64,000 nucleotides of DNA from Rhodoferax potami (lineage in GTDB: Bacteria > Pseudomonadota > Gammaproteobacteria > Burkholderiales > Burkholderiaceae_C): contig NZ_JAVBIJ010000001.1 of assembly GCF_032193765.1 (NCBI RefSeq), positions 620,001-684,000 of the forward strand, given 5' to 3'. The notes under the pieces were generated by a model. It was not told the DNA's origin. It worked only from the letters and a program-made list of their open reading frames with translations, and did not search any database. Below, one piece after another: positions 673 to 62,503 of the stretch; the first letter of the stretch is position 1, and every line of letters starts with the position of its first letter. Position numbers and translations under genes: made by a program.

Positions 673-1574
673 AGTGCTTGGTGCAACTGCAAGATGTGCG
701 CCACTTGCTCTGCAATCGGGGCAGGAACCGGGCTCTCTCCGTTCAATACCGATTGTATGTAGGTCGCGGTGCTGGCTGCATCGATCGCGGTGGGCAGCTC
801 CGGCAGCGTTGTCAACGAGCCGGCTTGGTAGGCCCGCAGGTCCGTCGCCTTGCCGGCCAAGAAGGCTTGCATCTTGGGGGTGCGGCGGGCGTCGGCCACC
901 GCTTCGCCCTCAGTGCCGCGGATCAGCAGGGCGTTGGCTTGCACCAGGGCAAACGTATCCGCCATAGACACTGCGTATTCGGGGTGGGTGTAGCTGCTCA
1001 CCAGCAGGGCGGGGCCGTCCACCGGGTTCATGAGCTTGACCAGGCTGTGCGCCGGGTTGCGCAGGTTCACCACGCGGCGCACATCCAGCAGGCGCTGTAG
1101 GCCGGGCAGTAGGGTGCCGGTAGGCACAAACGCCACGCTGCCGGTTGCTATTCTTTTGGTATCTGCTTGCGCATGTATTCCGAGCGCTGCGAGCACTTCA
1201 GACACAAAAACCCGCTTGTCCTCGGTGGCGGTGCCGTGGATCAGCACCGGGAGGCCCTCGCGCGCCAGCAGCAGGGCCAAAAGCGGGGTTAGTAAGGGCA
1301 GCTTGCGCGCACCGTTGTAGCTGGGGATAACGACGACCGGCACATCGCTGGCGGGCAGCAGGGCCATGCGGCTGCGCACGGCGTCCAGAAAACCGGCCAT
1401 TTCTTCCGCGGTTTCGCCTTTGATGCGCATGGCCAGGCAAAAGGCGCCCACTTCGAGGTCGGTGACGGTGCCGTCCAGCACTTGGCCCAGCAGGTCGGCC
1501 GCCTGCGTGCGGTTGAGCGCACGTGCGCCGTCTTTGCCGCGACCGATTTCTTTGATGTAGTTGCCAATAGCCAT
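669..1574 (-). CDS. ybiB: YbiB/TrpD2-family protein (glycosyltransferase family 3 fold)
   Basis: A 301-residue protein with the anthranilate-phosphoribosyltransferase fold: an N-terminal helical domain (GRGKDGARALNRTQAADL) and then the phosphoribosyltransferase-like domain (IPSYNGARKLPLLTPLLALLL). E. coli YbiB (TrpD2) is reported to bind nucleic acid and to lack TrpD activity, so tryptophan synthesis is not implied. In betaproteobacteria this gene commonly sits between the nitrate reductase and cobA genes; its role there is unknown to me. It begins 42 bases after the nasA stop and overlaps cobA by 4 bases. An interspersed repeat (1146-1202) lies in-frame inside it and encodes about residues 125-143, a probable surface insertion. 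Confidence 0.85.
   Translation of the reverse strand: MAIGNYIKEIGRGKDGARALNRTQAADLLGQVLDGTVTDLEVGAFCLAMRIKGETAEEMAGFLDAVRSRMALLPASDVPVVVIPSYNGARKLPLLTPLLALLLAREGLPVLIHGTATEDKRVFVSEVLAALGIHAQADTKRIATGSVAFVPTGTLLPGLQRLLDVRRVVNLRNPAHSLVKLMNPVDGPALLVSSYTHPEYAVSMADTFALVQANALLIRGTEGEAVADARRTPKMQAFLAGKATDLRAYQAGSLTTLPELPTAIDAASTATYIQSVLNGESPVPAPIAEQVAHILQLHQAL
1146..1202 (+). repeat. Interspersed 57-bp repeat, copy G (inside ybiB)
   Basis: Begins TGCTATTCTTTTGGTATC, then TTGCGCA, then GAGCGCTGCGAGCACTT, the block order shared by all copies. It lies antisense to ybiB and is translated in reverse with no stop, giving roughly VLAALGIHAQADTKRIATG. The translated phase (ending xTA GCA) is the same as in copy I within ftsX. 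Confidence 0.65.
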
Positions 1575-1616
1575 GCCGCGATTGTCGGTGAAGCCTGATA
1601 ACTTTCGGCTATGTCC

Positions 1617-4442: not shown

Positions 4443-4448
4443 GGTGCG

Positions 4449-4835
4449 TCAAGCTGCGGTGGTGGGGCGTGGTTTCGGCCCCGCCATGGGGCGCACCAAA
4501 TCGGTGCCGTGATTCTGAAGCTCGGCTGCATTGAGGTACACCACGCCCTCTTCCAGCTTCACGCTGAATTTGGGTGTGCAGCCTTCATCAGGCGCGCTGG
4601 CCTGGCCGTCGCACAGGCCGATGGTCCAGTTGTGCAGCGGGCAGGCCACGCTGGTGCCGAACACAATGCCTTGCGAGAGCGGGCCGCCCTTGTGCGGGCA
4701 ACGGTCCAGCAGGGCAAACACTTCGTCCTGGCTGTTGCGGAAGACGGCGACATCGAGTCCGGTGCTGCGTTCCACGCGGCGGGAGCCCAGCACGGGGATG
4801 TCTTCAAGGGTGCAAATGCGGGTCCATTCGGTCAT
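4449..4835 (-). CDS. nirD: Nitrite reductase (NADH) small subunit, Rieske-like
   Basis: A 128-residue protein of the NirD type. It carries the Rieske-type pairs CPHKGG (C45, H47) and CPLHNW (C64, H67), spaced as in a [2Fe-2S] Rieske fold. Many NirD proteins have lost these ligands; here all four are visible. The partner is the NirB large subunit, 0.9 kb upstream in the same operon. A gene for a tandem P-box protein and a copy of the interspersed repeat (4851-4907) separate the two. The start at 4835 is preceded by a GGAG-type ribosome site (AGGAGAAACCGC in the sense direction). Confidence 0.94.
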   Translation of the reverse strand: MTEWTRICTLEDIPVLGSRRVERSTGLDVAVFRNSQDEVFALLDRCPHKGGPLSQGIVFGTSVACPLHNWTIGLCDGQASAPDEGCTPKFSVKLEEGVVYLNAAELQNHGTDLVRPMAGPKPRPTTAA

Positions 4836-4850
4836 GCGGTTTCTCCTGAA

Positions 4851-4907
4851 TGCTATTGTTTTGATAGCTATAGGCGCACGTTTTGTGAGCGCCAGAGGCT
4901 TATTTGG
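4851..4907 (+). repeat. Interspersed 57-bp repeat, copy A (nirD / P-box gene spacer)
   Basis: Reads TGCTATTGTTTTGATAGC, then GGCGCA, then GAGCGCCAGAGGCTTATTT. The first arm is an inverted repeat (GCTAT...ATAGC) and the second block pairs GGCGC with GCGCC. It fills nearly all of the 75-base spacer between two co-transcribed genes, so it would be present in the operon mRNA as two hairpins. Confidence 0.75.
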
Positions 4908-4910
4908 TGT

Positions 4911-5708
4911 TTAAGAGGTTTTGATGGCCGCATACAGGCCGGTCACCCGGTCCATCACGGTGAGCAGGTTTTCGCTGGCCAGGTACACATCCGCCATCGG
5001 GCGTGGGCGTTGCGCGCCCTCTTGCAGGTTCTGCAAGGCATTGTCAAAAAACACCCACTGTGCGTCTCCGAGGGCCAGCTCATCTTTGATGCGCGAGGTA
5101 GCTTCCGGTGCGCTTTTGAGCAGCTGCATCGCGGCAGTGAATTCACTGCGCGCTTTGTTGAGCTCCATGCCTGCGGTCGCGGCATCCACCGGCAAGGTGG
5201 TGGCTAGGTAGTACTTGGCCATGCGCTGGCTCAGCATGCGCTGGCGCCCTGCGACGTTCACCAGTTTGCCCACCGGCTTGGCCAGTGCCGCCTCGTACTG
5301 CTGGGTGCCCTGGTGGGCGAGTGCCAGCACCTTGGCGTCTTGCTGCAGCAGGGCGGCCGCTGCCTCGCGGGTTGGTGCTTTGCCAACCAATAGGGTTTTG
5401 TAATCGCTCCAGGCGCTATCGAGCTTGGTGTACGTGGCCAGCACCTCGGGGTTGGGCGCAAAGGCTTTGAGCTCTAGTAGCTGCCGGTCGAACAGGGTGA
5501 TCGACTTGTCCAACACCAGCTGGGCGCTGGTTTTCTCCACGCTCAGCAGCATGGCCAGCCAGGCCTTGCCCATGCGCTGGCTCAGCATGCGCTGACGGCC
5601 GGCTTTGTTGATGGCGTCGCTCAGGTCCGCCACCTGCGCGTTTGCGGCGGGCAGGGCGAGTGCTAGGGCACTCGCAGCGGCGGCTGTGATCAGGCTTCGG
5701 CGTTGCAT
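4911..5708 (-). CDS. Secreted tandem P-box (PilJ/NarX sensor-like) protein
   Basis: A 265-residue protein with an N-terminal signal (RR at residues 3-4, hydrophobic to about 24, then ANAQ), possibly Tat-exported. Two copies of the type IV pili methyl-accepting/NarX N-terminal domain are visible, each opening with a P-box-like motif: DAINKAGRQRMLSQRM (31-46) and VNVAGRQRMLSQRM (150-163). In NarX the related motif binds nitrate or nitrite in the periplasm. There is no transmembrane or kinase domain, so this is a soluble binding module. I chose ATG 5708 because a GGGAGGAG site precedes it and the longer frame would overlap nirB. Its place between nirB and nirD suggests nitrate/nitrite binding or buffering; that is inference. 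Confidence 0.85.
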   Translation of the reverse strand: MQRRSLITAAAASALALALPAANAQVADLSDAINKAGRQRMLSQRMGKAWLAMLLSVEKTSAQLVLDKSITLFDRQLLELKAFAPNPEVLATYTKLDSAWSDYKTLLVGKAPTREAAAALLQQDAKVLALAHQGTQQYEAALAKPVGKLVNVAGRQRMLSQRMAKYYLATTLPVDAATAGMELNKARSEFTAAMQLLKSAPEATSRIKDELALGDAQWVFFDNALQNLQEGAQRPRPMADVYLASENLLTVMDRVTGLYAAIKTS

Positions 5709-8208: not shown

Positions 8209-9042
8209 TCAAGCGGCTTTTTCGACGTGGGCTTGGCGGGTGTACAAAAAGTCAATCACCGCCTTGCGGTAACCCAGGTACTCCGGGCTATCAGCCAAAG
8301 CCACGCGGGATCTAGGGCGGGGCAGGTTCACGCTCAGCACTTCGCCGATGGTGGCGGCCGGGCCATTGGTCATCATCACAATCTTGTCGGACAGCAGCAC
8401 GGCTTCGTCCACATCGTGGGTCACCATGACCACCGTGCTCTCGGTGCGGGCCACGATTTCCAGTAGCTCGTCTTGCAGCTTGGCGCGGGTCAGCGCATCG
8501 AGCGCGCCAAAGGGCTCGTCCATCAGCAGCACTTTGGGCTCCATGGCCAGCGCACGGGCAATACCTACGCGCTGCTTCATACCGCCGCTGATCTCACCGG
8601 GGCGCTTTTGGGCGGCTGCCGTCAGGCCCACCAGAGCCAGTGCAGCATCGGTGCGGGCCTTGAGCTGCGCTTTGGTCTCCGCCGGCGCGCCGGGGTTGCG
8701 GGTGCCGAACACGCGCTCCACCCCAAGGTAAATGTTCTCGAAACAGGTCAGCCAGGGCAGCAGCGAGTGGTTCTGGAACACCACGGCACGCTCAGGACCG
8801 GGGCCGGCAATTTCGCGGCTGGCGCAGATCAGCGAGCCTTGGGTGGGCATGGTCAAACCGGCAATCAGGTTGAGCAAGGTGGACTTGCCGCAACCGCTGT
8901 GACCGATGAGCGCCACAAACTCGCCCTTGGCCACGTTGAGGTTGATGTTGCGCAGCGCGGGAAACAAGCCCTTCTTGGTCTTGAAGGTTTGGTCCACGCC
9001 CTGGATTTCGATGTACTTGGCGTTCATGGATTCGATGCTCAT
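8209..9042 (-). CDS. nrtD: Nitrate ABC transporter ATP-binding protein
   Basis: ATPase of the NrtABCD/NasFED-type nitrate importer, 277 residues. Walker A is GHSGCGKST, the signature is ISGGMKQR, Walker B is VLLMDEPFGALD and the switch histidine lies in VTHDVDEA. It lacks the fused C-terminal solute-binding domain of cyanobacterial NrtC, so it resembles NrtD/NasD. Its start region overlaps the nrtB stop by 4 bases (ATGA). The stop lies 11 bases before the nirB ATG, and nirB's ribosome site sits directly after it. A taurine or cyanate importer is excluded by the nitrate operon context. Confidence 0.93.
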   Translation of the reverse strand: MSIESMNAKYIEIQGVDQTFKTKKGLFPALRNINLNVAKGEFVALIGHSGCGKSTLLNLIAGLTMPTQGSLICASREIAGPGPERAVVFQNHSLLPWLTCFENIYLGVERVFGTRNPGAPAETKAQLKARTDAALALVGLTAAAQKRPGEISGGMKQRVGIARALAMEPKVLLMDEPFGALDALTRAKLQDELLEIVARTESTVVMVTHDVDEAVLLSDKIVMMTNGPAATIGEVLSVNLPRPRSRVALADSPEYLGYRKAVIDFLYTRQAHVEKAA

Positions 9043-9971
9043 GACTTCACCTCTTCAAATGTGAATGCAGTTGCCAACTTAATAAGGGCGAACTCCAACA
9101 AAAGGCCCACGATGCCGATCACGAAGATGGCGATGATGATGTTCTTGACGTTGAGGTTGTTCCACTCGTCCCACACCCAGAAGCCGATGCCCACGCCGCC
9201 GGTCAGCATCTCCGCGGCCACGATCACTAGCCAGGCTGTGCCCACCGCCAAGCGCACGCCGGTCAACATGTAGGGCAGCACCGAGGGGAACAGGATCTTG
9301 GTAACAATCTTCCACTCGCTCAGGTTGAGCACGCGGGCCACGTTCATGTAGTCCTGCGGCACGCGCTGCACGCCCACGGCGGTGTTGATGATCATGGGCC
9401 AGATGGAGCAGATAAAGATGGTCCAGATGGCGGCCGGGTTCGCACCCTTGAATACCAGCAAACCAATCGGCAACCAGGCCAGTGGCGATACGGGGCGCAG
9501 CAGGCTGATGAGCGGGTTGAACATGCGGCTCAAGAACTCAAACCGCCCGATCAAAAAGCCCACCGGAATGCCCACCACCGCCGCGAGGCCGAAGCCCAAA
9601 GCGACGCGCTGCAGCGAGTACAAGATGTTCCAGCCCACGCCCTGGTCGTTCGGCCCCTTGCTGTAAAACGGGTCGCTGAAGATCACGACCGCCTGCTTCC
9701 AGGTCTCCAGCGGGCTGGGGATGGAGCTGGCCGTGCCGATGCTCACCATGGCCCAGATGCCGATCAGCAGTGCCAGCCCGAAAACGGGTGGCAACACCTT
9801 GAGCATCAGGCCGCTCCAATCAAAGCCAGGCGCAGCGGCGGGTGCCGGCGCGCTTGTTGGGGCATACTTTGGGGCCTTGGCGCCCGTCAAATCTGCGCTG
9901 GCAGCTTCTGTTTTGATAGCAGTGCCGTCGTCGGCAGTGGCTATCGGCGAATGAAAAACGGCGCTGACCAT
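9039..9971 (-). CDS. nrtB: Nitrate ABC transporter permease
   Basis: Inner-membrane permease of 310 residues. A low-complexity Ala/Pro/Thr-rich cytoplasmic tail of about 50 residues precedes roughly six membrane segments. The binding-protein-dependent transport motif is visible as EWKIVTKILFPSVLPYMLTGVRLAVGTAW. The family is NtrB/NrtB/SsuC-like. The N-terminal tail contains a translated copy of the interspersed repeat (residues about 18-36, AIKTEAASADLTGAKAP), which explains part of its unusual composition. It lies between nrtA and nrtD, 12 bases after the nrtA stop, and is co-transcribed with them. Confidence 0.93.
   Translation of the reverse strand: MVSAVFHSPIATADDGTAIKTEAASADLTGAKAPKYAPTSAPAPAAAPGFDWSGLMLKVLPPVFGLALLIGIWAMVSIGTASSIPSPLETWKQAVVIFSDPFYSKGPNDQGVGWNILYSLQRVALGFGLAAVVGIPVGFLIGRFEFLSRMFNPLISLLRPVSPLAWLPIGLLVFKGANPAAIWTIFICSIWPMIINTAVGVQRVPQDYMNVARVLNLSEWKIVTKILFPSVLPYMLTGVRLAVGTAWLVIVAAEMLTGGVGIGFWVWDEWNNLNVKNIIIAIFVIGIVGLLLEFALIKLATAFTFEEVKS
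9864..9921 (-). repeat. Interspersed 57-bp repeat, copy H (inside nrtB)
   Basis: On the minus strand it reads TGCTATCAAAACAGAAGC, then AGCGCA, then GGGCGCCAAGGCCCC. It is sense with nrtB and translated in the frame GCT ATC AAA. The same frame is used by copy J in miaA, and the two encoded peptides are alike (AIKTEAASADLTG versus [13 protein letters not shown]). Confidence 0.75.
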
Positions 9972-11445: not shown

Positions 11446-11503
11446 TGCTATGAAAAAGAGAGCTACCTGCGCAATATATTCGGGCGCTAGGTGCACTTTT
11501 TAT
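11446..11503 (+). repeat. Interspersed 57-bp repeat, copy B (between NtrC site and promoter)
   Basis: Reads TGCTATGAAAAAGAGAGC, then TGCGCA, then GGGCGCTAGGTGCACTTTTT. It occupies the stretch between the candidate NtrC site and the sigma-54 promoter. Its tail includes a GTGCACC sequence that resembles an NtrC half-site. Confidence 0.7.
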
Positions 11504-12339: not shown

Positions 12340-13395
12340 ATGCTGGTGTTGGGGATTGAGTCTTCGTGTGACGAAACTGGGGTGGCGATGGTGCAGTCAC
12401 AAGGTGATGCCGTGCCCACGCTGCTGGCACACGCCCTGCACAGCCAGATCGAGATGCACCAAGCCTTTGGTGGCGTGGTGCCGGAGCTGGCCAGCCGCGA
12501 CCATATACGCCGTGTGCTGCCCTTGACCCGACAAGTGTTGAGTGAGAGCGGCCGCAGCCTGCAAGAGGTGGATGTGGTGGCTTACACCCGTGGCCCCGGT
12601 TTGGCCGGCGCGTTGCTGGTGGGGGCGGGTGTGGCGTGTGCATTGGGCGCGGCACTGGGCAAACCGGTGTTGGGCGTGCACCACCTGGAAGGGCACTTGC
12701 TGTCGCCTTTTTTGAGTGAAGACCCGCCAGAGTTCCCGTTCGTGGCCTTGCTGGTATCCGGCGGGCACACCCAGCTGATGCGGGTGGACGGCGTAGGCCA
12801 CTACGAGCTGCTGGGCGAGACCATCGACGATGCGGCGGGTGAGGCCTTTGACAAATCTGCCAAGCTCATGGGGCTGGCCTATCCCGGCGGACCCTTGTTG
12901 TCCAAGTTGGCCGAGTCGGGTGACCCGAGGGCTTATGCCTTGCCACGCCCTTTGTTGCACAGCGGCAACCTCGATTTTTCTTTTGCCGGCCTCAAAACCG
13001 CGGTGCTGGTGCAAAGCCAGCGCATGTTGGCTGCCGGCGGCGTCACCAGTTTTCAGGCTTTGCCTGCGCAACAGCAGGCGGATCTGGCGGCATCCACCCA
13101 ATCCGCGATTGTGGAGGTCTTGCTGAAGAAGTCGGTCACGGCCTTGAAGCAAACCGGTCTCAAGCGCCTGGTGGTGGCCGGTGGCGTGGGGGCCAACCGC
13201 AAACTGCGGGAGCAGCTCAATGCCGAGTGCGCCAAGCGCGGCGTCCGGGTGCATTACCCTGAGCTGCATTTGTGCACCGACAACGGTGCCATGATCGCCA
13301 TGGCCGCTGCGATGCGGCTGCAAAGTGGCTTGCAAAACGCGGTGACCGACTACGCGTTTGACGTCAAGCCGCGCTGGCCCCTGCATTCCTTGTGA
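12340..13395 (+). CDS. tsaD: tRNA N6-adenosine threonylcarbamoyltransferase
   Basis: Transfers threonylcarbamoyl to A37 of ANN-decoding tRNAs (t6A) together with TsaB and TsaE, which are not in this window. The 351-residue protein starts at ATG 12340 behind AAAGGA and opens with [17 protein letters not shown]. Metal-binding histidines lie in [12 protein letters not shown], with nucleotide-binding segments in [10 protein letters not shown] and [14 protein letters not shown] and a terminal [10 protein letters not shown]. The length fits bacterial TsaD. It is divergent from nasT with a 105-bp gap and is followed by a repeat copy that acts as its terminator. Confidence 0.97.
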
Positions 13396-13449
13396 AAAGA
13401 GCCTCCGGCGCTCGCAAATCAAGCGCGGGAAGCTCTTTTTTTGATAGCG
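13393..13449 (-). repeat. Interspersed 57-bp repeat, copy C, doubling as tsaD terminator
   Basis: On the minus strand it reads CGCTATCAAAAAAAGAGC, then CGCGC, then GAGCGCCGGAGGCTCTTTT. On the plus strand it folds as AAAAGAGC...GCTCTTTT with an inner GGCGCT/AAGCGC pairing and ends in a run of seven or more T. That forms a rho-independent terminator 3-45 bases past the tsaD stop. It also overlaps the last bases of tsaD. Confidence 0.75.
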
Positions 13450-13485: not shown

Positions 13486-13875
13486 TTACTGGATCGTGAG
13501 CTCTGCCGAGGTATCCACGGGTACCTTTTTGGCCAATTTGAGCGTGAGCACGCCGTTTTCGAGTTTGGCCTCGCTCAAGGCGCTGTCCACCTCTTGGGGC
13601 AACTCGTAAGCGGCGCGGTAGTGGCGGGGGGCGTCGTCCTTGCTTTGGATGCGGACCACCGCACCGTCAATCGCGATGCGCAGGTGCTCCTTGGCGATAC
13701 CGGGCATGTCCAGGCTCAAGGTGAAACTGGTGTCGTCCTGGGTGTAGGTGGTGCCGGCTTGGCGGGCTGAGAGGAGTGCGTCGCTCAAAAAGCGCTCGAC
13801 CGCATGAGCACTGCCGGAGTGGGCAGGGCGGCGCAGAGAGGCTTGAAAGGCGGCGGGGGCAGTGGCGAAGAACAT
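13486..13875 (-). CDS. Small heat shock protein, Hsp20/alpha-crystallin family
   Basis: A 129-residue holdase-type chaperone. A short N-terminal arm precedes the alpha-crystallin domain (about residues 43-129): TSFTLSLDMPGIAKEHLRIA ... YRAAYELPQEVDSALSEAKLENGVLTLKLAK. The A-x-x-x-G-V-L motif of Hsp20 is visible as AKLENGVLTL. The C-terminal I-x-I tail is absent; the protein ends AELTIQ. It is convergent with tsaD. Upstream, a CTTGAA sequence resembles a heat-shock sigma-32 -35 element, but I cannot find a matching -10. Confidence 0.9.
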   Translation of the reverse strand: MFFATAPAAFQASLRRPAHSGSAHAVERFLSDALLSARQAGTTYTQDDTSFTLSLDMPGIAKEHLRIAIDGAVVRIQSKDDAPRHYRAAYELPQEVDSALSEAKLENGVLTLKLAKKVPVDTSAELTIQ

Positions 13876-14683: not shown

Positions 14684-16789
14684 ATGAGCATTTTCAATAA
14701 AGTTACTAAGACTTTCCAATGGGGCCAACACACCGTCACCATGGAAACCGGCGAAATCGCACGCCAGTCCACCGGCGCTGTGCTGTTGGATATGGACGGC
14801 ACCGTCGTGTTGGCCACTGTGGTCGGCAAGACCGAAGGCAAGCCCGGCCAAGACTTCTTCCCCTTGACTGTTGACTACCTGGAAAAGTCGTACGCCGCAG
14901 GCAAGATCCCGGGCAGCTTCTTCAAACGCGAAGGCCGCCCCAGCGAGTTTGAAACGCTGACCAGCCGTCTGATCGACCGACCCATCCGCCCCCTGTTCCC
15001 CGAAGGCTTCTTCAACGAAGTGCACGTTGTGGTGCACACCGTGTCCCTGAACCCCGAAGTGGACGCTGACATCGCTGCCATGATCGCAGTGAGCGCGGCT
15101 CTGTCCGTGTCTGGCATCCCGTTCAACGGCCCGATCGGCGCAGCCCGCGTGGGTTACGTCAACGGCGAATACGTGTTGAACCCCGGACAGACTGCACGCA
15201 AAGACTCCATCATGGACTTGGTAGTTGCCGGTACCGAAGCCGCTGTGTTGATGGTCGAATCCGAAGCACAACAGCTGTCCGAAGAAGTGATGTTGGGTGC
15301 TGTGGTTTACGGCCACGAGCAGAGCAAGGCCGCCATCAACGCCATCCATGAACTGGTGCGTGACGCCGGCAAGCCCGTGTGGGACTGGAAGGCTCCTGCC
15401 CGTGATGAAGCCTTGATCGCGAAGGTCGATGCCCACGGCAAAGACAAGCTGGTTGCCGCTTATCAAATCCGTAACAAGCAAGCCCGTACCCAAGCCTGCC
15501 GCGCTGCCTACGCAGACGTGTTCGCCGGTTTGAAGGCCGACGGCGTTGAGTTCGACAGCGTCAAGGTCGAAGGCATGCTGTTTGACATCGAAGCCAAGAT
15601 CGTGCGCGGCCAGATTCTGGCAGGCGAGCCCCGTATCGACGGTCGCGATACACGCACAGTGCGCGCTATCGAAATCCGCAACGGCGTGCTGCCCCGCACC
15701 CACGGCTCTTCCTTGTTCACACGTGGTGAAACCCAGGCGTTGGTGATCGCCACCTTGGGTACCGAGCGCGATGCGCAGCGTATCGACGCTTTGAGCGGTG
15801 AGTACGAAGACCGCTTCATGCTGCACTACAACATGCCTCCCTTCGCCACTGGCGAAACCGGCCGCGTGGGTACGCCCAAGCGCCGCGAAATCGGTCACGG
15901 CCGTTTGGCCAAGCGCGCTCTGGTCGCTGTGTTGCCTACCAAAGAAGAGTTCCCTTACTCTCTGCGCGTGGTGTCGGAAATTACCGAGTCCAACGGCTCG
16001 TCTTCCATGGCTTCCGTGTGCGGCGGCTGCTTGTCCTTGATGGACGCTGGCGTGCCTTTGAAGGCACACGTGGCCGGTATCGCCATGGGCCTGATCAAGG
16101 AAGAAAACCGCTTCGCCGTGTTGACCGACATCTTGGGTGACGAAGATCACCTGGGCGATATGGACTTCAAGGTTGCTGGTACTACCAACGGTATTACTGC
16201 GCTGCAGATGGACATCAAAATCCAAGGCATCACCAAGGAAATCATGCAAGTGGCTTTGGCTCAGGCCAAGGAAGCGCGCGTACACATCCTGGGCGAAATG
16301 CAAAAGTCCATGGCGGAAGCGCGTACCGAAGTGTCCAACTTCGCACCGCGTCTGTTCAGCTTCAAGATCAACCCCGAAAAGATCCGTGATGTGATCGGCA
16401 AGGGCGGTTCTGTGATCCGTGCACTGACCGAAGAGACCGGCACCCAGATCAACATCGAGGAAGACGGCACGATCACCATCGCTTCCAGCGATCCTGAGAA
16501 GGCAGAGCTGGCCAAGAAGCGCATCGAGCAGATCACGGCTGAAGTCGAAATCGGCAAGGTGTATGAAGGCCCGATCACCAAGATTCTGGACTTCGGTGCG
16601 CTGGTCAACCTGCTGCCCGGCAAGGACGGCTTGTTGCACATCAGCCAGATCGCTCACGAGCGCGTCGAAAAGGTCACTGACTACCTGTCTGAAGGCCAGA
16701 TCGTCAAGGTCAAGGTTCTGGAGACCGACGAAAAGGGCCGCATCAAGCTATCCATGAAGGCCTTGATCGAGCGTCCTGCGCAAGAGTAA
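14684..16789 (+). CDS. pnp: Polyribonucleotide nucleotidyltransferase (PNPase)
   Basis: Phosphorolytic 3'-5' exoribonuclease of the RNA degradosome. It is 701 residues from ATG 14684, behind AGGAGA. Two RNase PH domains (about 10-230 and 310-540) are separated by a helical linker; the second contains [17 protein letters not shown] and [28 protein letters not shown] domain follows ([23 protein letters not shown]), then S1 ([20 protein letters not shown]). Length and domain order are standard. The rpsO terminator lies upstream; a repeat copy follows 10 bases after the stop. Confidence 0.98.
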
Positions 16790-16798: not shown

Positions 16799-16855
16799 TG
16801 CTATTGATTTGGTAGCAGCTTGCGCAAGCTTGGCGGGCGCTACCGGTCAATTCGA
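16799..16855 (+). repeat. Interspersed 57-bp repeat, copy D (pnp / oxidoreductase spacer)
   Basis: Reads TGCTATTGATTTGGTAGC, then TTGCGCA, then CGGGCGCTACCGGTCAATT. It fills the entire 67-bp gap and ends one base before the next ATG, so the oxidoreductase has no visible Shine-Dalgarno sequence. Confidence 0.72.
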
Positions 16856-39151: not shown

Positions 39152-40017
39152 ATGGAGACTCGAAAAATGCATATCCAAGGCATGGAGGTACAGGTGGAGG
39201 GGAGCGGACCGCGCACGGTCCTGATGTTGCATGGATGGCCAGACACCCTGGCCGTGTGGGACGGCACTGTTCGCGCCCTGCAAAACAATTACCGGTGTGT
39301 GCGTTTGACGCTCCCCGGCTTCGGTGACGTGCAGGAGCGGCCCCCGGTGGTGCCCAAGCTGGATGATGTGGTGGATGCCCTGGTCGCGGTGATTCAAACC
39401 GTGAGCCCCGGCGCACCGGTCACCTTGATGCTCCATGACTGGGGTTGCATTTTTGGCTACGAACTGGCGATGCGACACCCCCAGCGGGTGGAGGCCGTAG
39501 TCGCCATCGACATTGGGGACCACAATGCGCGGGCGTATCTCCAGTCCTTGTCGCTGAAACAGAAATTGGCGGTGGCAGCCTACCAGCTCTGGCTGGCCAA
39601 AGCCTGGATGGTGGGGCGCTACTTGCACCCCGGCCTTGGTAACCGGATGACGCGCTGGATGGCAGGCCTGATGCGCTGCCCCGTGCCGGCTCCACAGCTC
39701 AGCTGGACCATGAACTTTCCCTATGTGATGCAGTGGTTCGGCATGCGGGGGGGCTCCGCACCCGCCCGGTGAAGCTGACCTGTCCGGTGTTGTATGTGTT
39801 CGGGGAGCGCAAACCCTTCATGTTCCATTCTCCGCGCTGGCTGCATACCTTGCGCGCCTCAGAGGATGGCGCAGCCCACGCGCTGCGCTGCGGGCATTGG
39901 GTGATGCTTGAACAACCGGAGGCCTTTCACGCCCTGGTGCTGCGATGGCTGGCCGGCCGTGAGCGGCGCAAGAGCCATCGCTCTGTTCAGGAATTGCAGG
40001 TTTTAAGAGCCAAATAG
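39152..40017 (+). pseudogene. Alpha/beta hydrolase with frameshift at a G7 run
   Basis: An alpha/beta hydrolase of about 288 residues if repaired. ATG 39152 follows AGGAGG. The oxyanion region VLMLHGWPDT and the nucleophile-elbow position LMLHDWGCIFGYELA (Asp as in epoxide hydrolases or haloalkane dehalogenases) are seen. After WFGMRGG the frame ends at a TGA (39770). The next frame continues LRTRPVKLTCPVLYVFGERKPFMFHSP and GHWVMLEQPEAF (catalytic His), stopping at 40017. The break coincides with seven G at 39747-39753; eight G would restore MRGGLRTRP. Sequencing error or a real slippage site. Confidence 0.82.
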
Positions 40018-40066
40018 GGCCATGGCGCATGTAAATATTGCGCTAGATGCTACTATTTTTGTAGCA
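40010..40066 (-). repeat. Interspersed 57-bp repeat, copy E (hydrolase / attH spacer)
   Basis: On the minus strand it reads TGCTACAAAAATAGTAGC, then TAGCGCA, then ATGCGCCATGGCCCTATTT. It overlaps the last bases of the hydrolase gene and sits in the convergent gap before the AttH-like gene. Confidence 0.75.
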
Positions 40067-47534: not shown

Positions 47535-50198
47535 TTACCAGTCCTCTTTGACGGCCATCACGGCATCCCGCCCCGCCGCCGCCCGCCCGGCCAGCCAGGC
47601 GGTGGCGGTGCCGGCCAGCACGACGGCCCCAGCCAGGGCCGCCAGCCGCGCCCAAGGCAGGGCCAGCTCCATGGTCCAGTGAAAGCTCTGCGGGTTGACC
47701 ACGTGCACCAACACTACCGCGACTGCCAGGCCCAGCGTCACCCCCGCCAGCGCTCCCATGCTGGTCCAGGCGGCGCCCTCCAAGGCCACCACCCGCAATA
47801 TTTGCTGCCGTGTCAGCCCCAGGTGCACCAGCAGCCCGAACTCCTTGCGCCGCGCCAGCACCTGCGCACTGAAGCTGGCAGCCACCCCGAACAAACCGAT
47901 GCCGATGGCCACGGCCTGCAGCCAATAAGTCACCGCAAAACTGCGGTCAAAAATCTTCAAACTGATGGTCCGTATCTCGCGGGCGGAGCTGAACTCCAGC
48001 AATTCACCGGCCTCGCCAGCCGGCGTGCCGGCCAGCTGGTCGGCCAGCGCACGCATGCGGGCCTGCAGTGCGCCGGCATCGGTGCCATCGTCGAGCCAGA
48101 ACGCCATGTCGTTGACCCGTGTGTCTTGGCTCAGGCGGGCAAAGTCTGCCTGATCGAGGGTGATCGCCCCGGTTTGGCGGGCATAGTCCCGCCAAATGCC
48201 TGCTACAAAAAAAGGAGCTACTCCCGCAGTTTCTGCTTGGGCTACAGCCTTACTTGATACGAAGGCGGGCTGCAGGACCGGAAACGGTTGCCCCAACTGC
48301 GCGCCATACAGGTCCACCATGGCCTCACTCACATAGATCGCAATGTGACCGGCCGGCACTGCACGCACATCGCCCACCAGCGGCAGATTCAGGTTGCCGC
48401 TTTGCGGGTCCCGCAAAGGGCGCGAGATCAGGGCGACAGGTGGCTGTGTGGCACTGAGCGACACGTTTAGCGTGCGTTGGGTGGTGGCGCGGGCCACGCC
48501 GGGCAGGGCGGTGGCTTGTGCCACAAAGGCCGGGTCCAGAAAAGCGGTTTCTGTGGCGCTGCCGCTGCCGGCGGTGCGCACGTATAGGTCGGCGGGCAGT
48601 ACCTGGTCCAGCCAATCCGTCACCGAGCCGCGAAAGCTCGCCACCATCACCGTGAGCGCCACCGCCAGGCTCAGCGCGGCGACCACGCCACTCACGGCGA
48701 CCGCTGCACTCTCCCGCACCCGCCGGGCGCGCTCGACCGCCAGCAAGGGCAGCAAGTGGCGCGCAAACAGGGGCGCGATGCGGTCCAGCACCAAGCCCAC
48801 GGCGGCCGGCAGGCTCAAGATGCCGCCCAGCAGCAGGGCTGCCACACTCAGGTAAGCGGCCAGCGGCATGTCCCACACCGGAGGCAGCAGCGCCAATACG
48901 CCGCCTGCGCCCATGAGGGCCAGGCCCCAGCGGGTGGCGTGGCTACGGGTGTGCGCATGGCCCAGGCCCTTAAGGGTTTGGGCGGGGGGGAGTTGTTGGG
49001 CCAACCGGGCCGGGCCCCAAGCCCCCAGGAGTGCCGCAGCGGTACAGAGGGCGCCAAAAATCACCGCGGCCACCGGGCTCCACTGCAGCGCAGGTGCTGC
49101 ACCGCTGAAGTAACCGCCACCCAGGTCGCCCCCCAGCAGCCGCAAGGCCAAAGCCGCCAAGCCAGTGCCCAGTGCCAGACCCAAGGCGCTACCCAATATT
49201 CCCATTGCGGCAGCCTCCAGCACCACCAAGCGCAGCCGCTGTGCGCCCGTGAGGCCCAGCACCGCCAGCAGGGCAAATTGCTGTGAGCGCCGGCTCACGC
49301 TGAGAGCCAACACCGAATAGACCAAAAAGCCACCGGTGAACAGCGCCACCAGGGCCAGCACCGTCAGGTTCACCCGGTAGGCGCGCGACAGGTTGCTGAT
49401 GCGGCTCACCGCGTCGCCTGGCTCGCGCAGGCTCAGGCCCTGCGGCCAATCTGCAGCGCTTTGCAGGCGCTGTTGCACCGCCTGGCGGTTGGCTCCGGCG
49501 CGCAGCCTCAGGTCGAGGCGGCTGATGCGCTCACCCACCCCAAACAAGTCTTGCACCGCGGCAATGTCCATCACCGCCAAGGGGCCGCCCCCGGCAGCCA
49601 CACTGCCGGCCACCCGCACGGTGCGTAGTTGCAGGCCCACTTGCAAGCGCAATGTGTTGCCCTGCAACTGTTGGCGTGCCATTGGGTTCAAAAACACGGT
49701 GTCGGGCGCAAAAAAAGCGAGCCGATCCGGGGCAGCGCCGTCCGCATTGGTTGTGTCGTCACTTGGCAGTGGCGTCAGTGGCCGGGGCAGCAAATCCGGG
49801 GCCACCGCTGCCACTTGCAGGGTGTCGATGCCCACCACCCGCAGCAACACCCGTTTACCGCCGGCATCGGCGGGCAGGGCGTAGGTGCTGAGCTCCAGGA
49901 CCGGGGAGGCCAGCGCAATATCCGGGTCCTGTTGTAAGCGGCCCCACAGATCCAGCGGCACACCTTGCTGGGGGTTGGCCGGGCGCAGCTCCAGGTCGGG
50001 CTGCCCGCCCACTGAGCGCACCGCTTGCGAGAACTCATCCAGCGCGGAGGCATTGATCAGGTGCACCGAAAACGCCAGCGCCACCCCCAGCATCACCGAC
50101 ATCACCGCCGCTGCATTGCGCCACGGGTGGTGGCGCAGCTCTTGCCACGAGAAAGTGCGAAGCAAGGGCCAAAGTGGGGTCCGGTGGGTCAGTTGCAT
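47535..50198 (-). CDS. Large FtsX-like ABC permease (two FtsX domains)
   Basis: An 887-residue inner-membrane protein. An N-terminal membrane segment (MLGVALAFSVHLINASALDEF) and a MacB-like periplasmic domain are followed by FtsX segments near 280-400, further helices to about 500, a second periplasmic region, and a final FtsX domain near 770-875. This is the architecture of lipoprotein or lysophospholipid ABC permeases such as YbbP. No ATPase gene is adjacent; a LolD-like ATPase lies 5 kb upstream on the same strand (55527-56183). A repeat copy (48201-48257) is translated in-frame at about residues 648-666. Divergent from the TPP riboswitch. Confidence 0.85.
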   Translation of the reverse strand: MQLTHRTPLWPLLRTFSWQELRHHPWRNAAAVMSVMLGVALAFSVHLINASALDEFSQAVRSVGGQPDLELRPANPQQGVPLDLWGRLQQDPDIALASPVLELSTYALPADAGGKRVLLRVVGIDTLQVAAVAPDLLPRPLTPLPSDDTTNADGAAPDRLAFFAPDTVFLNPMARQQLQGNTLRLQVGLQLRTVRVAGSVAAGGGPLAVMDIAAVQDLFGVGERISRLDLRLRAGANRQAVQQRLQSAADWPQGLSLREPGDAVSRISNLSRAYRVNLTVLALVALFTGGFLVYSVLALSVSRRSQQFALLAVLGLTGAQRLRLVVLEAAAMGILGSALGLALGTGLAALALRLLGGDLGGGYFSGAAPALQWSPVAAVIFGALCTAAALLGAWGPARLAQQLPPAQTLKGLGHAHTRSHATRWGLALMGAGGVLALLPPVWDMPLAAYLSVAALLLGGILSLPAAVGLVLDRIAPLFARHLLPLLAVERARRVRESAAVAVSGVVAALSLAVALTVMVASFRGSVTDWLDQVLPADLYVRTAGSGSATETAFLDPAFVAQATALPGVARATTQRTLNVSLSATQPPVALISRPLRDPQSGNLNLPLVGDVRAVPAGHIAIYVSEAMVDLYGAQLGQPFPVLQPAFVSSKAVAQAETAGVAPFFVAGIWRDYARQTGAITLDQADFARLSQDTRVNDMAFWLDDGTDAGALQARMRALADQLAGTPAGEAGELLEFSSAREIRTISLKIFDRSFAVTYWLQAVAIGIGLFGVAASFSAQVLARRKEFGLLVHLGLTRQQILRVVALEGAAWTSMGALAGVTLGLAVAVVLVHVVNPQSFHWTMELALPWARLAALAGAVVLAGTATAWLAGRAAAGRDAVMAVKEDW
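48201..48257 (+). repeat. Interspersed 57-bp repeat, copy I (inside ftsX-like gene)
   Basis: Reads TGCTACAAAAAAAGGAGC, then CCCGCA, then TTGGGCTACAGCCTTACTT. Antisense to the gene and translated without a stop as about SSKAVAQAETAGVAPFFVAG, in the second periplasmic region. Less GC-rich than the surrounding gene. Confidence 0.7.
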
Positions 50199-50256
50199 AG
50201 GGCGATTGTGCGTCTGTGCCTCGCGGTTCGCCGGCGCGCCCTACAATCACGGCTTC

Positions 50257-50333
50257 CACCGGGGGTGTCCTTCACAGGACTGAGAAATACCCCATGTACC
50301 TGATCTGGGTTATGCCAGCGTAGGAAGCGTGCG
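50257..50333 (+). promoter_or_regulatory. TPP riboswitch (THI box)
   Basis: The conserved core is visible in order: GGGGTGTCC, then GGACTGAGAAATACCCC, then ACCTGATCTGGGTTATGCCAGCGTAGGAA. These match the pyrimidine-sensing and pyrophosphate-sensing arms of TPP aptamers. It lies about 75 nt upstream of thiB, and TACAAT at 50242-50247 is a possible -10. The variable arm is very short. No clear terminator hairpin follows, so translational control is more likely. Confidence 0.94.
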
Positions 50334-50406
50334 AAGCCTGATCCCCCTTTGCGGGTGCCGGTTTTTGAATGCGACCCCCGCCGGCGCATTGAAAAGAGAG
50401 CACACC

Positions 50407-55526: not shown

Positions 55527-56183
55527 TCAGCCGTGGGGGTGGCGAATCCCGTCGTGGTGCAGGTGCAAAACCCGGTCTGCATGTTCGGTGGCCGCCAATG
55601 AGTGCGTGACCAGCACCAAAGCGCTGCCGTGTTGGCGGCACTGGGTGACCAGGGCCTGCATGACTTTGGCAGCGGTAACGGGATCCAGGTTGCCGGTGGG
55701 CTCATCGGCCAGAATTAATGCGGGCTGGTGCACCAGCGCGCGAGCGATGGCCACCCGTTGCAACTGCCCGCCGCTGAGCTGTTGGGGCAAACGCGCACCC
55801 AGCTCGCCCAGCCCGACCGCGTCAAGCAAGGCCTGCACCCGTTCGGGCTCCTGGCGACCGAGCAGCATCAGCGGCAAAGCCACGTTTTGCGTGACATCCA
55901 GATGCGGCAGCACGTGGAAGGCCTGGAACACAAAGCCCACCTTGTCCCGCCGGAGCAGGGCCCGTTGGTCGTCATTCAGGCGCCCCAGGTCTTGCCCGGC
56001 CAGGTGCACGGTGCCTTGGTCCCAGCTGTCGAGCCCGGCCATGCAGTTCAGCAGGGTGGATTTGCCAACCCCGGACTCGCCCACAATGGCCACAAACTCG
56101 CCGGGTGCGACATCCAGGTTCACATGGGCAAACACCGGGGTGCTGCCGTAGTGTTTGCCGACATCACGCAGTTGCAAAGTCAT
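55527..56183 (-). CDS. LolD-like ABC ATPase
   Basis: A 218-residue ATPase of the LolD/MacB group. Walker [10 protein letters not shown], signature QLSGGQLQR, Walker [14 protein letters not shown], switch His [16 protein letters not shown] is typical of the group that pairs with FtsX-like permeases. ATG 56183 overlaps the miaA stop (ATGA). The matching large permease is 5.3 kb further along the same strand (47535-50198). Intergenic separation suggests an ancestral operon split by insertions. Confidence 0.87.
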
Positions 56184-57154
56184 AGAGCGGCCCGCTGTTG
56201 AAGGGTGGTGCGCACGGCGTGCAGCAAGGCGTCTTGGGCGCCGGCTTGGTCGCAGGCGATGACGTGGCGGCGCGGCATGGAGCGCAGCCACGTCATTTGC
56301 CGCTTGGCGAGTTGGCGGGTGGCGAATATGCCTTTGTCACGCAGCTCCGCCATGGGGGAGACGCCGGTCAGTGCCTCCCAAGCCTGGCGGTAGCCTACAC
56401 AGCGCATGCTGGGCAGGTCGGGGTGCAGGTCGCCGCGCGCCATGAGGGTTTTGACCTCGTCCAGAAAGCCGCCTTGCAGCATCAGGTCAAACCGCTGGGC
56501 AATGCGGCCATGCAACCAGGTGCGGTCGGTGGGTTCTAAGGAAAAAAGGGTGTTAGTGCCCGTATTGTCTGCGCGAGCTGCTTCTTTTTTGATAGCGTCT
56601 TGCTGGGCGTGAAAGTACGACAAGGGGTGCCCCGATACCCGGTAGACCTCCAGCGCACGCTGGATGCGCTGGCTGTCGGCCGGTGCGAGCCGGGCAGCGG
56701 TTATCGGGTCCACGGCGGCCAGTTGGGCGTGCATGGCCGGCCAGCCCAAGGCAGCGGCTTCGGCCTCTAGCGCGGCACGGATCTCGGGGCTGGCAGCAGG
56801 CATGTCATCGAGCCCGTCAAACAAGGCCTTGAAGTACAGCATGGTGCCGCCCACCAGCAGCGGCAGCTTGCCGCGGGCGCTGATGTCGGTGATCAGCGTC
56901 TTGGCGTCTTTCACGAACTCGGCCGCGCTGTAGGTGTGCAACGGGTCGCGGATGTTGATCAGGTGGTGCGGCACCGCGGCCAGCTCATGGGCCTCGGGTT
57001 TGGCGGTGCCGATGTCCATTCCCTGATAGACCAAGGCCGAATCCACGCTGATGATCTCGGCCGGATGCTCTGCAGCAATCGCCAGCGCGGCAGCTGTTTT
57101 GCCGGCCGCGGTGGGGCCGGCTAGGCACAGGTAGAAGGGCAAAGGGTTGCTCAT
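56180..57154 (-). CDS. miaA: tRNA dimethylallyltransferase
   Basis: Adds dimethylallyl to A37 of tRNAs reading UNN codons. A 324-residue protein from ATG 57154. P-loop GPTAAGKT (residues 13-20), then [18 protein letters not shown], then the family segments HHLINIRDP and [23 protein letters not shown] and [13 protein letters not shown] close the fold. A repeat copy adds about residues 187-205 ([19 protein letters not shown]) after [18 protein letters not shown] overlaps with the MATE gene upstream and the LolD-like gene downstream. Confidence 0.95.
56541..56597 (-). repeat. Interspersed 57-bp repeat, copy J (inside miaA)
   Basis: On the minus strand it reads CGCTATCAAAAAAGAAGC, then TCGCGCA, then CGGGCACTAACACCCTTTTT. 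It is sense with miaA and translated GCT ATC AAA AAA GAA GCA, the same frame as copy H in nrtB. The encoded residues lie between two conserved segments of MiaA. Confidence 0.75.
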
Positions 57155-58575: not shown

Positions 58576-58661
58576 GTGGCGCCCATTTTACGGGGCACCC
58601 CCTATTGATCGGTGACCTGCAAGAGTGGCCCTGCAGTACGCTCGACCCGCGTGCGGCACCG

Positions 58662-58689: not shown

Positions 58690-58709
58690 TGTATAAGGGT
58701 CGGGGCCCT

Positions 58710-59885: not shown

Positions 59886-59955
59886 GGGGTCCCTCATTGT
59901 GAAAATAAGCAACCCGTGATCATGGTGCGCCCGGATGACTGTTGCGTGACAAAAC

Positions 59956-60849: not shown

Positions 60850-60930
60850 GGGTGCAAGGATTGTGGATTGGTTGATGTGGGTCAAATGCGCTGTCTGTGA
60901 CACCTCGCCTACCGCCGAGATAATTTCTGC

Positions 60931-62337
60931 ATGACGCTTGCTGCCCCTGTATCCCCCCATCATCGCACCCCTGAATTGCTGGCCCCTGCGGGCTCGCTCG
61001 CCATGCTGCAAACCGCGCTCGCCTTCGGTGCAACTGCGGTGTACGCCGGTCAGCCGCGCTACAGCTTGCGGGTGCGCAATAACGATTTCGGCAGCTTGGA
61101 TGTGTTGCGCGCCGGCATTGAGCACACGCACGCGCAGGGCAAGAAGTTCTACTTGGTGTCCAACATCTTCCCGCATGGCAACAAGACGCAGAGCTATGTG
61201 AAGAACATGCAGCCGGTGATAGCCCTGAAGCCGGACGCGATGATCATGTCCGACCCCGGCCTCATCATGCTGGCGCGCGAGGCCTGGCCGGAGATGGAGA
61301 TTCACCTCTCGGTGCAAGCCAACACGGTGAATGCTGCGGCGGTGAAGTTCTGGAGCAAAGTCGGTATCAGCCGCGTGATCTTGTCGCGCGAGTTGTCGTT
61401 GGACCAGGTGGCGCAGATCCGGCAGGACTGCCCGGACACCGAGCTGGAAGTGTTTGTGCACGGTGCGCTGTGCATTGCCTACTCGGGCCGCTGCCTGCTC
61501 TCGGGTTACTTCAACCACCGCGATGCCAACCAGGGCAGCTGCACCAACTCCTGCCGCTGGGACTACAAGACGCATGCGGCGCAGGTGGATGTGAGTGGCG
61601 ATGTGCTGAGCCCTCAGCGCAGCGGCCATGACTACGGACAGGGCAGCACGGTCCCTGCCGAGGCGCAACAAAGCATTGCTTACTTGCTCGAAGAAAGCCA
61701 ACGCCCCGGCCAGTACATGCCCATCGAGGAGGACGAGCACGGCACCTATGTGATGAACTCCAAAGACCTGCGCGCCATCGAGCATGTGCAGCGCCTGGTG
61801 GAAATCGGGGTGGACTCACTCAAGATTGAAGGCCGCACCAAGAGCCCGTATTACGTGGCTCGCACTGCGCAGGCCTACCGCGCGGCCATTGACGACGCCG
61901 TGGCCGGCCGCGCGCTCAACCCCGAACTGCTGGGCCAGCTTGAAGGCCTGGCCAACCGGGGCTACACCAGCGGTTTCTTCCAGCGCCACACGCCAGAGGC
62001 CACCCAAAACTACCTGCGTGGCTACTCCGAGAGCGGGCGCAGTCTGTACGTGGGCGATGTGCTGGCTTTTGATACGAAGCGGGGGCTTGCGCAGGTGAAT
62101 GTGCGCAACAAATTTGCGGTGGGTGACCGGCTGGAAATCATCCACCCTGCGGGCAACGTGGATGCCATGCTGACCCGCATGGAAAACGCCGACGGCACCT
62201 CTATGGACGTGGCTCCTGGCAGTGGACACACCGTGTGGGTAGATTTGCCGGAGGCCGCAGTGGGCGCGTTTGTGGCGCGCTACCTGGCAGACGAACCGGT
62301 CGCAGCCCCTTCCACCACCGTGTTTGACATGGCCTAG
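60931..62337 (+). CDS. trhP: U32 peptidase-family protein, YegQ/TrhP-like
   Basis: A 468-residue U32-family protein. E. coli TrhP (YegQ) takes part in prephenate-dependent 5-hydroxyuridine formation at tRNA position 34. Conserved pieces are ELLAPAGSLAMLQTALAFGATAVYAG, the U32 signature ELEVFVHGALCIAYSGRCLLSGY, RDANQGSCTNSCRWDY (iron-sulfur type cysteines) and IEGRTKSPYYVARTAQAYR. The length and C-terminal RNA-binding domain fit YegQ rather than YhbU. Divergent from the EamA gene. Confidence 0.88.
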   Translation: MTLAAPVSPHHRTPELLAPAGSLAMLQTALAFGATAVYAGQPRYSLRVRNNDFGSLDVLRAGIEHTHAQGKKFYLVSNIFPHGNKTQSYVKNMQPVIALKPDAMIMSDPGLIMLAREAWPEMEIHLSVQANTVNAAAVKFWSKVGISRVILSRELSLDQVAQIRQDCPDTELEVFVHGALCIAYSGRCLLSGYFNHRDANQGSCTNSCRWDYKTHAAQVDVSGDVLSPQRSGHDYGQGSTVPAEAQQSIAYLLEESQRPGQYMPIEEDEHGTYVMNSKDLRAIEHVQRLVEIGVDSLKIEGRTKSPYYVARTAQAYRAAIDDAVAGRALNPELLGQLEGLANRGYTSGFFQRHTPEATQNYLRGYSESGRSLYVGDVLAFDTKRGLAQVNVRNKFAVGDRLEIIHPAGNVDAMLTRMENADGTSMDVAPGSGHTVWVDLPEAAVGAFVARYLADEPVAAPSTTVFDMA

Positions 62338-62447
62338 AGGTGTGGGGGCAGATGGGTGTTCTGCGCAGGTCAAGGAGGAGCCCGCACAGCGGGCGGGGGA
62401 CACGGAGCAGAGCGCCCAGCTGACCACGCACCTCGGTTGCCCAAAAA

Positions 62448-62503
62448 TGCTATCAAAAAAATAGCAACTTCCGCAATATCGACGGCCTGAAGTGCCGATT
62501 TGG
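62448..62503 (+). repeat. Interspersed 57-bp repeat, copy F (trhP / GGDEF-EAL spacer)
   Basis: Reads TGCTATCAAAAAAATAGC, then CCGCA, then CGGCCTGAAGTGCCGATTT. The first hairpin (GCTAT...ATAGC) is perfect. It lies in the convergent gap just before the stop of the EAL gene. Confidence 0.75.

Follow-up and report, generated by a model that had tools for sequence, protein, structure and literature searches.

A 57-bp interspersed element of Rhodoferax potami and related bacteria, conserved at silent sites inside genes, as a possible chromosome-wide DNA signal

Background

Short repeats in bacterial genomes are usually treated as selfish or inert. Here we describe a family of 57-bp interspersed elements recognized in a stretch of 64,000 nucleotides (hereafter, the window) that comprises positions 620001-684000 of NZ_JAVBIJ010000001.1, the larger contig of the 4.0-Mb Rhodoferax potami genome; when YbiB is compared, the closest records that bear a name come from strain OS-4 (AP026970.1) and from Rhodoferax. 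A preliminary description of the window reported ten copies, four of them inside genes, and likened these four to the in-frame capture of palindromic elements in Rickettsia.

The DNA uptake sequence (DUS) has a length of 12 bp. The uptake signal sequence (USS) is 9 bp long and occurs at about one copy per kb, and the same gap test that we use here for the origin of copies, a strong consensus, absence of orientation bias and regular spacing have been reported for USS and DUS (PMC1626085). Rickettsia palindromic elements, of about 150 bp, are described as insertions and, like the present element, are translated in frame in unrelated proteins (PMC10969869); the present family differs in the in-place formation of three copies or more, in the use of both orientations and in the conservation of silent sites. 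The BRE repeat of Bordetella is likewise an interspersed repeat of betaproteobacteria, listed also for Comamonadaceae, but is described as about 90 bp in length with 69% GC, as a tandem variable number repeat and with at most 29 copies per genome (PMC3110155); by that description, rather than by its sequence, it is set apart from our non-tandem 57-bp element, the window copies of which have 40-56% GC.

The GTAG class of repetitive extragenic palindromic (REP) sequences, with the REP doublets forming hairpins (REPINs) and the REP-associated tyrosine transposase (RAYT), resembles the present family in consisting of short palindromic repeats of high copy number, some of which lie in genes (Di Nocera 2013, PMC3733652), and a RAYT-like gene is present in most genomes that we searched. 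However, the invariant GTAG tag is replaced by RTAG at columns 14-17 of our element (G in 40% at column 14 and T in 72% at column 15 of 57 copies), 37 of 98 copies lie inside genes rather than being extragenic (some intragenic REPs also appear in PMC3733652), a transposase gene is not consistently flanked, and constraint acts on the DNA in place. The main text of that report makes no mention of Acidovorax, Comamonas, Polaromonas, Rhodoferax, Delftia or Burkholderiales.

A motif pair of Polaromonas naphthalenivorans, ATAGCT(N)22CAAAAG, has been reported with 125 copies of which 101 are intergenic, 18 in genes and 34 convergent; such motif pairs are most numerous, at 140, in Rhodoferax ferrireducens (Tong, Schliekelman and Mrazek 2017, PMC5217627). 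The parts of that paper that we cite describe a spaced pentamer pair rather than a 57-bp element, and give no constraint inside genes, dialects or function. The exact pattern has 0 matches in the R. potami genome, and 28 of 150 related genomes hold an exact match, at most 12 each, many of which read as a dialect of the element (ATAGCTGCTTGCGC...GGGCGCAAAAG). Probably, therefore, the motif pair is one dialect of the element, an identity that is drawn from related genomes and not from P. naphthalenivorans itself. We found no name for the family in the open-licence literature, in a search that did not cover the supplementary tables of PMC5217627; in open-licence full texts, short motif strings of the element returned only papers unrelated by title and abstract, and Comamonadaceae together with "DNA uptake sequence" returned nothing.

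Results

Delineation and anatomy of the element

The family was delineated with a covariance model (R2) built from 18 copies, the ten window copies among its training set. These ten accordingly score E 9e-16 to 5e-22 with a model trained on them, while 20 evenly spaced stretches of 20 kb hold 35 further matches at E<=1.3e-4, against ten copies in the 64-kb window; on the whole genome 150 of 1569 candidates were scored, the weakest of these with E 8.8e-12. The genome-wide scan for enrichment that the preliminary description had proposed bears out its claim far above controls, with 213 matches to the left-half pattern at up to 2 mismatches compared with 1 for the reversed pattern. A profile retrained on the matches finds 67 at E<=1e-3 in 464 kb and zero at E<=0.01 in Markov-generated and reversed controls of 464 kb each, and after iteration the sequence profile recovers 98 copies (E<=1e-3) from 824 kb, or about 480 per 4-Mb genome. 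E-values of these home-built profiles refer to the stretches searched, and matches with E>1e-3 were left out of all counts on sharing, gene placement, constraint and spacing.

The consensus of the 98 copies, TGCTAYNRAWWNNRTAGCTRCYNGCGCANWWTYNRYGNGSGCTASMRSCNNWTTTNN, carries 53.9 bits over 61 columns. In this numbering an inverted pair GCTAY/RTAGC flanks an A/T-rich spacer of 7 nt (columns 2-18), and further blocks are GCGCA (24-28), a variable 10-nt spacer, GCGCTA (39-44), GGC (47-49) and ATTT (52-55), the right half being, by inspection, a degenerate mirror of the left. The core GCTA-N10-AGC-N5-GCGCA is found in 824 kb as 61 perfect and 45 one-off occurrences, against 1 and 10 in the control. 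The element matches no Rfam family; at gathering score, the only matches in the window are a thiamine pyrophosphate (TPP) riboswitch and a tRNA. The GCTAY/RTAGC pair had been called a hairpin, and as an inverted repeat it is indeed conserved, but a simple hairpin model for the element gained no covariation support and was rejected, and only 57-70% of copies keep the fourth base pair of the repeat.

Silent sites inside genes are conserved

To evaluate constraint on the DNA itself, copies found in the R. potami genome were aligned with the congener G509 (flanks about 80% identical), presence of the element in G509 not being required; alignments with more than 4 gapped columns were excluded, which left 21 copies inside genes and as many in non-coding DNA. 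Third codon positions of in-gene copies that fall on the 17 most conserved columns are identical in 101 of 107 cases (94%), compared with 475/772 (62%) in the flanks and 72/110 at variable columns of the element. Sense copies (54/57) and antisense copies (47/50) behave alike. When the same mask was shifted by codons into the flanks, all 79 positions gave lower values with a maximum of 0.82, and flank third positions ending in A or T are 37-45% conserved. The test rests on one genome pair taken in both directions of ascertainment, and starting from G509 (26 copies) the corresponding counts in R. potami are 59/62 for sense and 63/70 for antisense, with one copy at 1/5. Non-coding copies follow the same pattern, with identity at 339/357 conserved positions, 1901/2299 flanking positions and 265/377 variable positions. 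For the closer congener G590 (about 92% identical) the contrast at third positions is small, as expected (103/112 vs 721/824).

Copies are also shared in place: 51 of 55 alignable copies are common with G590 and 45 of 49 with G509, a further 10 and 16, respectively, being without synteny, and in the reverse direction the counts are 49/53 and 42/51. At variable columns orthologous copies are 70-75% identical and paralogous copies 31%, which argues against homogenization between copies. Because silent sites are kept, variable columns drift and orthologues are more alike than paralogues, these alignments point to old copies that were passed on vertically and are preserved at the level of DNA. As silent sites are kept in sense and antisense alike, the DNA itself appears to be under selection and, as far as these comparisons go, something must read or favour the element DNA irrespective of gene direction.

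The preliminary description had further proposed one fixed reading phase per orientation, and beyond the window this is followed by 32 of 37 in-gene copies (sense 17/21, antisense 15/16), with five copies off the rule, those in lpxK and the OTCase gene among them. In the sense direction phase 0 is stop-free in 79 of 98 copies and the other two phases in 33 and 14; in antisense, phase 1 is stop-free in 73 of the 98, phase 2 in 57 and phase 0 in 1. The fixed phase is thus largely mechanical, a matter of avoiding stop codons.

Copies formed in place and copies inserted

Clean in-frame insertion, as first suggested for the in-gene copies, proved real in GluQRS but gives no general rule, for the copies in ybiB and, outside the window, in lpxK and coaBC formed in place; in the terms of the gap test, origin by substitution was found in these three genes and not in GluQRS. 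Aligned with orthologues, the ybiB copy is no insertion: all 22 relatives have the same length of 19 residues, although 13 carry an element-like site (17.7-37.6 bits) and nine do not (<=4.5 bits or no match). A single additional residue occurs in one of the relatives, but upstream of the element, and the YbiB structure PDB 7y3p is a few residues longer at this stretch, not 19 shorter. For lpxK, where the alignment is of proteins only and element status was judged by peptide, the stretch is exactly 20 residues long throughout the alignment (121 of 121 sequences, counting the query), and PDB 4ehw has two residues fewer. Codons of the motifs HYDF and LICTEKDA make up the two ends of the element; homologues share both motifs and differ in between. 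The coaBC stretch aligns gap-free with PDB 6tgv inside the DFP domain, and the OTCase has three extra residues compared with PDB 4f2g.

The miaA copy, also put forward as an insertion, does not lengthen its protein by 19 residues, the loop being of 14-24 residues in homologues (counted by eye) and about 21 where it bears the element. Side observations on this gene concern two relatives. The miaA gene of G597 (L109) has an element in the same loop starting a few codons earlier, perhaps of independent origin there. That of G509 (G509:C1:3268187-3269151) has its match split over two frames overlapping at the element, with a one-base gap relative to the window copy, which is a frameshift or an assembly error.

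GluQRS, which lies outside the window, has 19-22 residues at the element in 119 of 121 aligned sequences, 0 in one and 11 in one, and its family profile is 23 residues shorter. Among 16 proteins whose family profile spans an element, ten are within -11 to +12 residues of the profile (YbiB, MiaA, a NodT-type channel, a CCA enzyme, HpnE, a HAD protein, OTCase, a metallo-lactamase-like protein, LpxK and CoaBC), and six are longer: Tex (+31), MutL (+46), GluQRS (+23), GDPD (+20), AcnA (+60) and a methyltransferase matching tRNA_U5-meth_tr (+15). The excess length suggests insertion in these six, with a residue-level check in GluQRS. In-place and inserted copies together therefore point to two routes of origin. 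A separate candidate for gain or loss in place is an in-gene element of G509 (position 221732 of the concatenated stretch), of which the gap-free R. potami orthologue is not at all element-like.

These data bear directly on the idea that the copies are inert in-frame insertions tolerated in loops, as for Rickettsia palindromic elements. Several copies do lie in linkers or variable loops (MiaA, AcnA, AmiC, ProRS) and that of GluQRS was inserted; nevertheless, the third-position identity of in-gene copies compared with their flanks, and the lack of a matching gap in conserved domains of homologues of ybiB, lpxK and coaBC, make this a very improbable explanation, and as a general account it is contradicted by the synonymous-site test. 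The likeness to Rickettsia drawn in the preliminary description accordingly holds in part: it extends to in-frame translation in unrelated genes, while insertion is not general and the copies are under constraint at the DNA level.

Placement in the genome and a terminator-like subset

By the gene calls of a codon-statistics caller built for this analysis rather than the official annotation, the 98 R. potami copies comprise 41 intergenic, 20 overlapping a gene end and 37 wholly inside genes. Among gaps of at least 40 nt, non-coding copies favour convergent gaps (24 of 61 copies vs 37 of 235 gaps) and avoid divergent ones (4 of 61 vs 67 of 235). The top 150 matches show no strand bias by replichore (34/32 and 43/41, replichores from GC skew of samples), and strand asymmetry was rejected, as both strands occur throughout. 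The coefficient of variation of spacing is 0.79 compared with a random 5-95% range of 0.80-1.18 (62 gaps), at the edge of being more regular than random, gaps below 1 kb number 2 vs 7.8 expected, and the closest pair in 464 kb is 607 bp apart, with no tandem array. None of the top 150 matches falls on the 135-kb second contig (p=0.006). Depletion of accessory DNA in copies is uncertain: 3 copies lie in the 42.6 kb of DNA absent from both G590 and G509 and 46 in the 321 kb common to both; of the six segments longer than 3 kb that both relatives lack, four (31.9 of 40.1 kb) are copy-free and the other two hold three copies; and DNA absent from G509 has 1.05 vs 1.48 copies per 10 kb.

For a subset of copies, folding in silico gives an extended stem in the right half, with T-tracts on either strand and energies reaching -35 kcal/mol. 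When the 61 non-coding copies are ranked by the stability of this half, seven of the top ten lie in convergent gaps. Extended stem pairing in non-coding copies is 0.545 vs a shuffled mean of 0.526, with 6 of 500 shuffles as high, while in-gene copies, at 0.459 vs 0.471, are not above shuffled sequence. The subset is therefore predicted from folding to act as a bidirectional terminator, mostly at convergent gene ends. That each copy is an intrinsic terminator and nothing more would agree with the stems and A- and T-tracts of this subset, with its convergent bias and with the raised pairing of non-coding copies, but is hardly credible given the 37 of 98 copies inside genes, where the extended stem is missing while the column profile is unchanged (correlation 0.967 with non-coding copies) and constrained in antisense too. 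Termination is thus not the general function, the same columns being conserved inside genes in the absence of an extended stem.

Distribution, dialects and a possible copying element

Related Comamonadaceae, in which the preliminary description had proposed a scan, share this enriched and interspersed family, dialects of which occur in many genera. An order-wide scan with strict filters, in which up to 16 candidates were scored per genome, gave matches at E<=1e-6 in at least 7 of 300 genomes, five of them from the family of the window and the remaining two, with a single match apiece, from two other families. In the family itself 299 genomes were scanned: at least 1 pattern match is present in 125, at least 10 in 78 and at least 50 in 54, with a maximum of 344, where 1-3 matches per genome mean little because controls reach 0-3 per strand. 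Within genera the distribution is patchy (matches per congener 183, 0 and 245; 117, 215 and 1; 152, 0 and 27). Decayed remnants, sought with three mismatches in eight copy-poor congeners of copy-rich genomes, were indistinguishable from controls (totals 2-11 vs 2-14), and in G500 and G264, of two other genera, the same search gave 0 vs 12 in the control, each.

The element differs in dialect between genera. One dialect combines the same left module with GCGCAAAAG on the right, at many places matching the Polaromonas motif pair (PMC5217627), and in genus g165 AGGC replaces GCGC. The form in G093 is 104 bp long, with a left module, a 52-nt middle containing a nested inverted repeat (TTTCAGAT...ATCTGAAA in several) and an inverted right arm, for which the distance is exactly 52 nt at 17 of the 20 sites sampled (L329-L348), five of the 20 having been chosen because both arms had already given matches; we take this long form to resemble a REPIN. 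Its congeners G133 and G580 have element counts no higher than control. Long copies resembling the 104-bp form were also seen in L068 and L070.

This architecture raises the possibility that the family goes back to a miniature inverted-repeat or REPIN-like hairpin, since domesticated. A transposase such as the RAYT-like Y1_Tnp, present in single copy, would have copied it in the past or would do so still, and the copies would have been kept afterwards as useful terminators or hairpins. The palindromic form with its fixed arm distance, the insertion in GluQRS and the existence of terminator-like copies fit such an origin. So do data on the gene itself: a RAYT-like Y1_Tnp gene (PF01797), present in 222 of the 299 genomes, is commoner in copy-rich genomes (60 of 68 with at least 20 matches vs 144 of 207 with fewer than 3; Fisher p=0.002, not corrected for phylogeny), and in 6 of 21 loci (L307, L312, L318, L319, L321 and L327) the single-copy gene has an element at its inferred 3' end or close to it (E 1.5e-6 to 0.008), although these six are not independent by descent and may be one inherited site. 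Conversely, a match to PF01797 at E<=1e-3 is lacking in eight of the 68 copy-rich genomes and found in 144 of the 207 copy-poor genomes, recent changes are few (51 of 55 alignable copies common with a 92%-identical relative), and copying predicts neither in-place formation in lpxK, coaBC and ybiB nor synonymous constraint in place. Judged from these sequences, a copying element is thus possible but rather unlikely as the explanation. Y1_Tnp/RAYT as a necessary or sufficient partner was rejected on co-occurrence, the association being weak and non-exclusive. Separately, G314, a genome with 301 element matches, has fourteen matches to Y1_Tnp; several of these score identically, and an IS200-like expansion is probable.

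Comparison with DNA-uptake signals

In its behaviour, the element is most like the USS. Shared with USS and DUS are in-place origin of some copies, a strong core consensus, use of both strands, coding as well as non-coding copies, and dialects (PMC3630211); the element differs in its 57 bp and 54 bits, a density of about one per 8 kb, and some insertions. Were it an uptake signal, competent cells would prefer motif-bearing self DNA, alleles would spread, and copies would arise by substitution and be kept by biased recombination. The excess of perfect over one-off cores (61 vs 45), the absence of orientation bias with spacing at the edge of regular, a non-coding preference with many coding copies, and in-place origin by the gap test in ybiB, lpxK and coaBC are as reported for USS and DUS (PMC1626085), and terminator-like copies, dialects between genera and a second contig without a top-150 match point the same way. 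Against this stand the information content and great length, a density far below the approximately one per kb of USS/DUS (PMC1626085), the copies that are insertions, the lack of a known receptor, and comEC, which is present in 24 of 24 genomes tested, motif-bearing and motif-free alike. We therefore regard uptake as improbable. Being present in both groups, comEC was rejected as a separator of motif-bearing from motif-free genomes.

Copies in the window

All ten copies claimed for the window are present at the reported places with the reported block order and, as claimed, in both orientations. Four lie inside genes, in sense in nrtB and miaA and in antisense in ybiB and the gene of an 887-aa FtsX-domain permease. 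The copy at 1146..1202 (+) is antisense inside ybiB (669-1574, -), formed in place and not inserted, with the element also in congeners G509 and G418. The second (4851..4907, +) lies between a NirD-like gene (4449-4835, -) and gene 4911-5708 (-) and has counterparts in G509 and G622. The third (9865..9921, -) is sense in the N-terminal part of nrtB (9039-9971, -), before the family-profile match, and is decayed in G418. The intergenic copy at 11446..11502 (+), between two - strand genes, is found in G590 and G509 and not in G622. The fifth (13393..13449, -) is at the end of tsaD (12340-13395, +), convergent with gene 13486-13875 (-), and is missing in G418; in silico it folds into a long hairpin with A- and T-tracts, resembling a bidirectional terminator.

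The sixth copy (16799..16855, +) is 9 nt past pnp (14684-16789, +), overlaps the called start of the next gene and occupies the same place in G590, G509, G622 and G418. By R2, 23 kb (16868-39997) then follow without any copy, the first 18 kb with mostly + strand genes. The top-scoring copy of the window (40010..40066, -) is directly 3' of gene 40074-41141 (-), and G509 has a gap and no element. The copy at 48201..48257 (+), antisense in the 887-aa FtsX/MacB-domain gene (47535-50198, -), has the same place in G590, G509 and G622 (gap-free) and in G418 (9-nt gap). The ninth (56541..56597, -) is sense in the variable-length loop of miaA (56180-57154, -), its DNA pattern being visible in many congeneric miaA genes. 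The last (62448..62504, +) lies in a convergent gap between genes 60931-62337 (+) and 62517-63986 (-), with no orthologous site in the five congener stretches compared. The TPP riboswitch of the window (RF00059, 65.6 bits) is at 50251-50344 (+), upstream of a + strand gene.

Discussion

The explanation that we favour, at about an even chance, is that the copies are DNA recognition sites for a chromosomal factor. Each copy would be a DNA-level site kept in its own right, through selection or through some biased process, of which uptake is an example, and presumably a protein reads it. Copies lie in genes irrespective of direction, tend to keep a distance from one another and are all but missing in some congeners of copy-rich genomes; from this we infer a signal with an effect at the level of the whole chromosome, in domain organization or in self-DNA recognition. 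The fuller proposal, which we hold tentatively and at somewhat less than even chances, is that a 57-bp chromosome-wide DNA signal, assembled in place from codons already present or by insertion, kept at silent sites in dozens of unrelated genes in both directions and differing in dialect between genera, may represent a new class of genome signature, read by a factor and recruited as a bidirectional terminator at gene ends.

Several observations weigh against recognition sites of this kind. No factor was found, and 54 bits is far beyond what one factor needs for specificity, which hints at copying. The copy in GluQRS is a whole-copy insertion, six of the 16 profiled proteins exceed their profile by 15-60 residues, and the fixed-length palindromic form of 104 bp in G093 (17 of 20 sampled sites) resembles a replicating element; the length of the element, its low density and these palindromic relatives favour an element of the REP or miniature inverted-repeat transposable element (MITE) type that was copied in the past and perhaps still is. 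In addition, the evidence from spacing is marginal, depletion is not seen in DNA that only G590 lacks (1.33 vs 1.36 copies per 10 kb), and some congeners live almost without copies.

The conservation of silent sites, for which the protein-coding copies provide a clean test, gives the element its wider relevance. In a large and environmentally common bacterial family, the element would provide a tractable probe for a chromosome-scale factor, and in many proteins of such bacteria the shape of loops and linkers may be due to a DNA signal and not to protein function.

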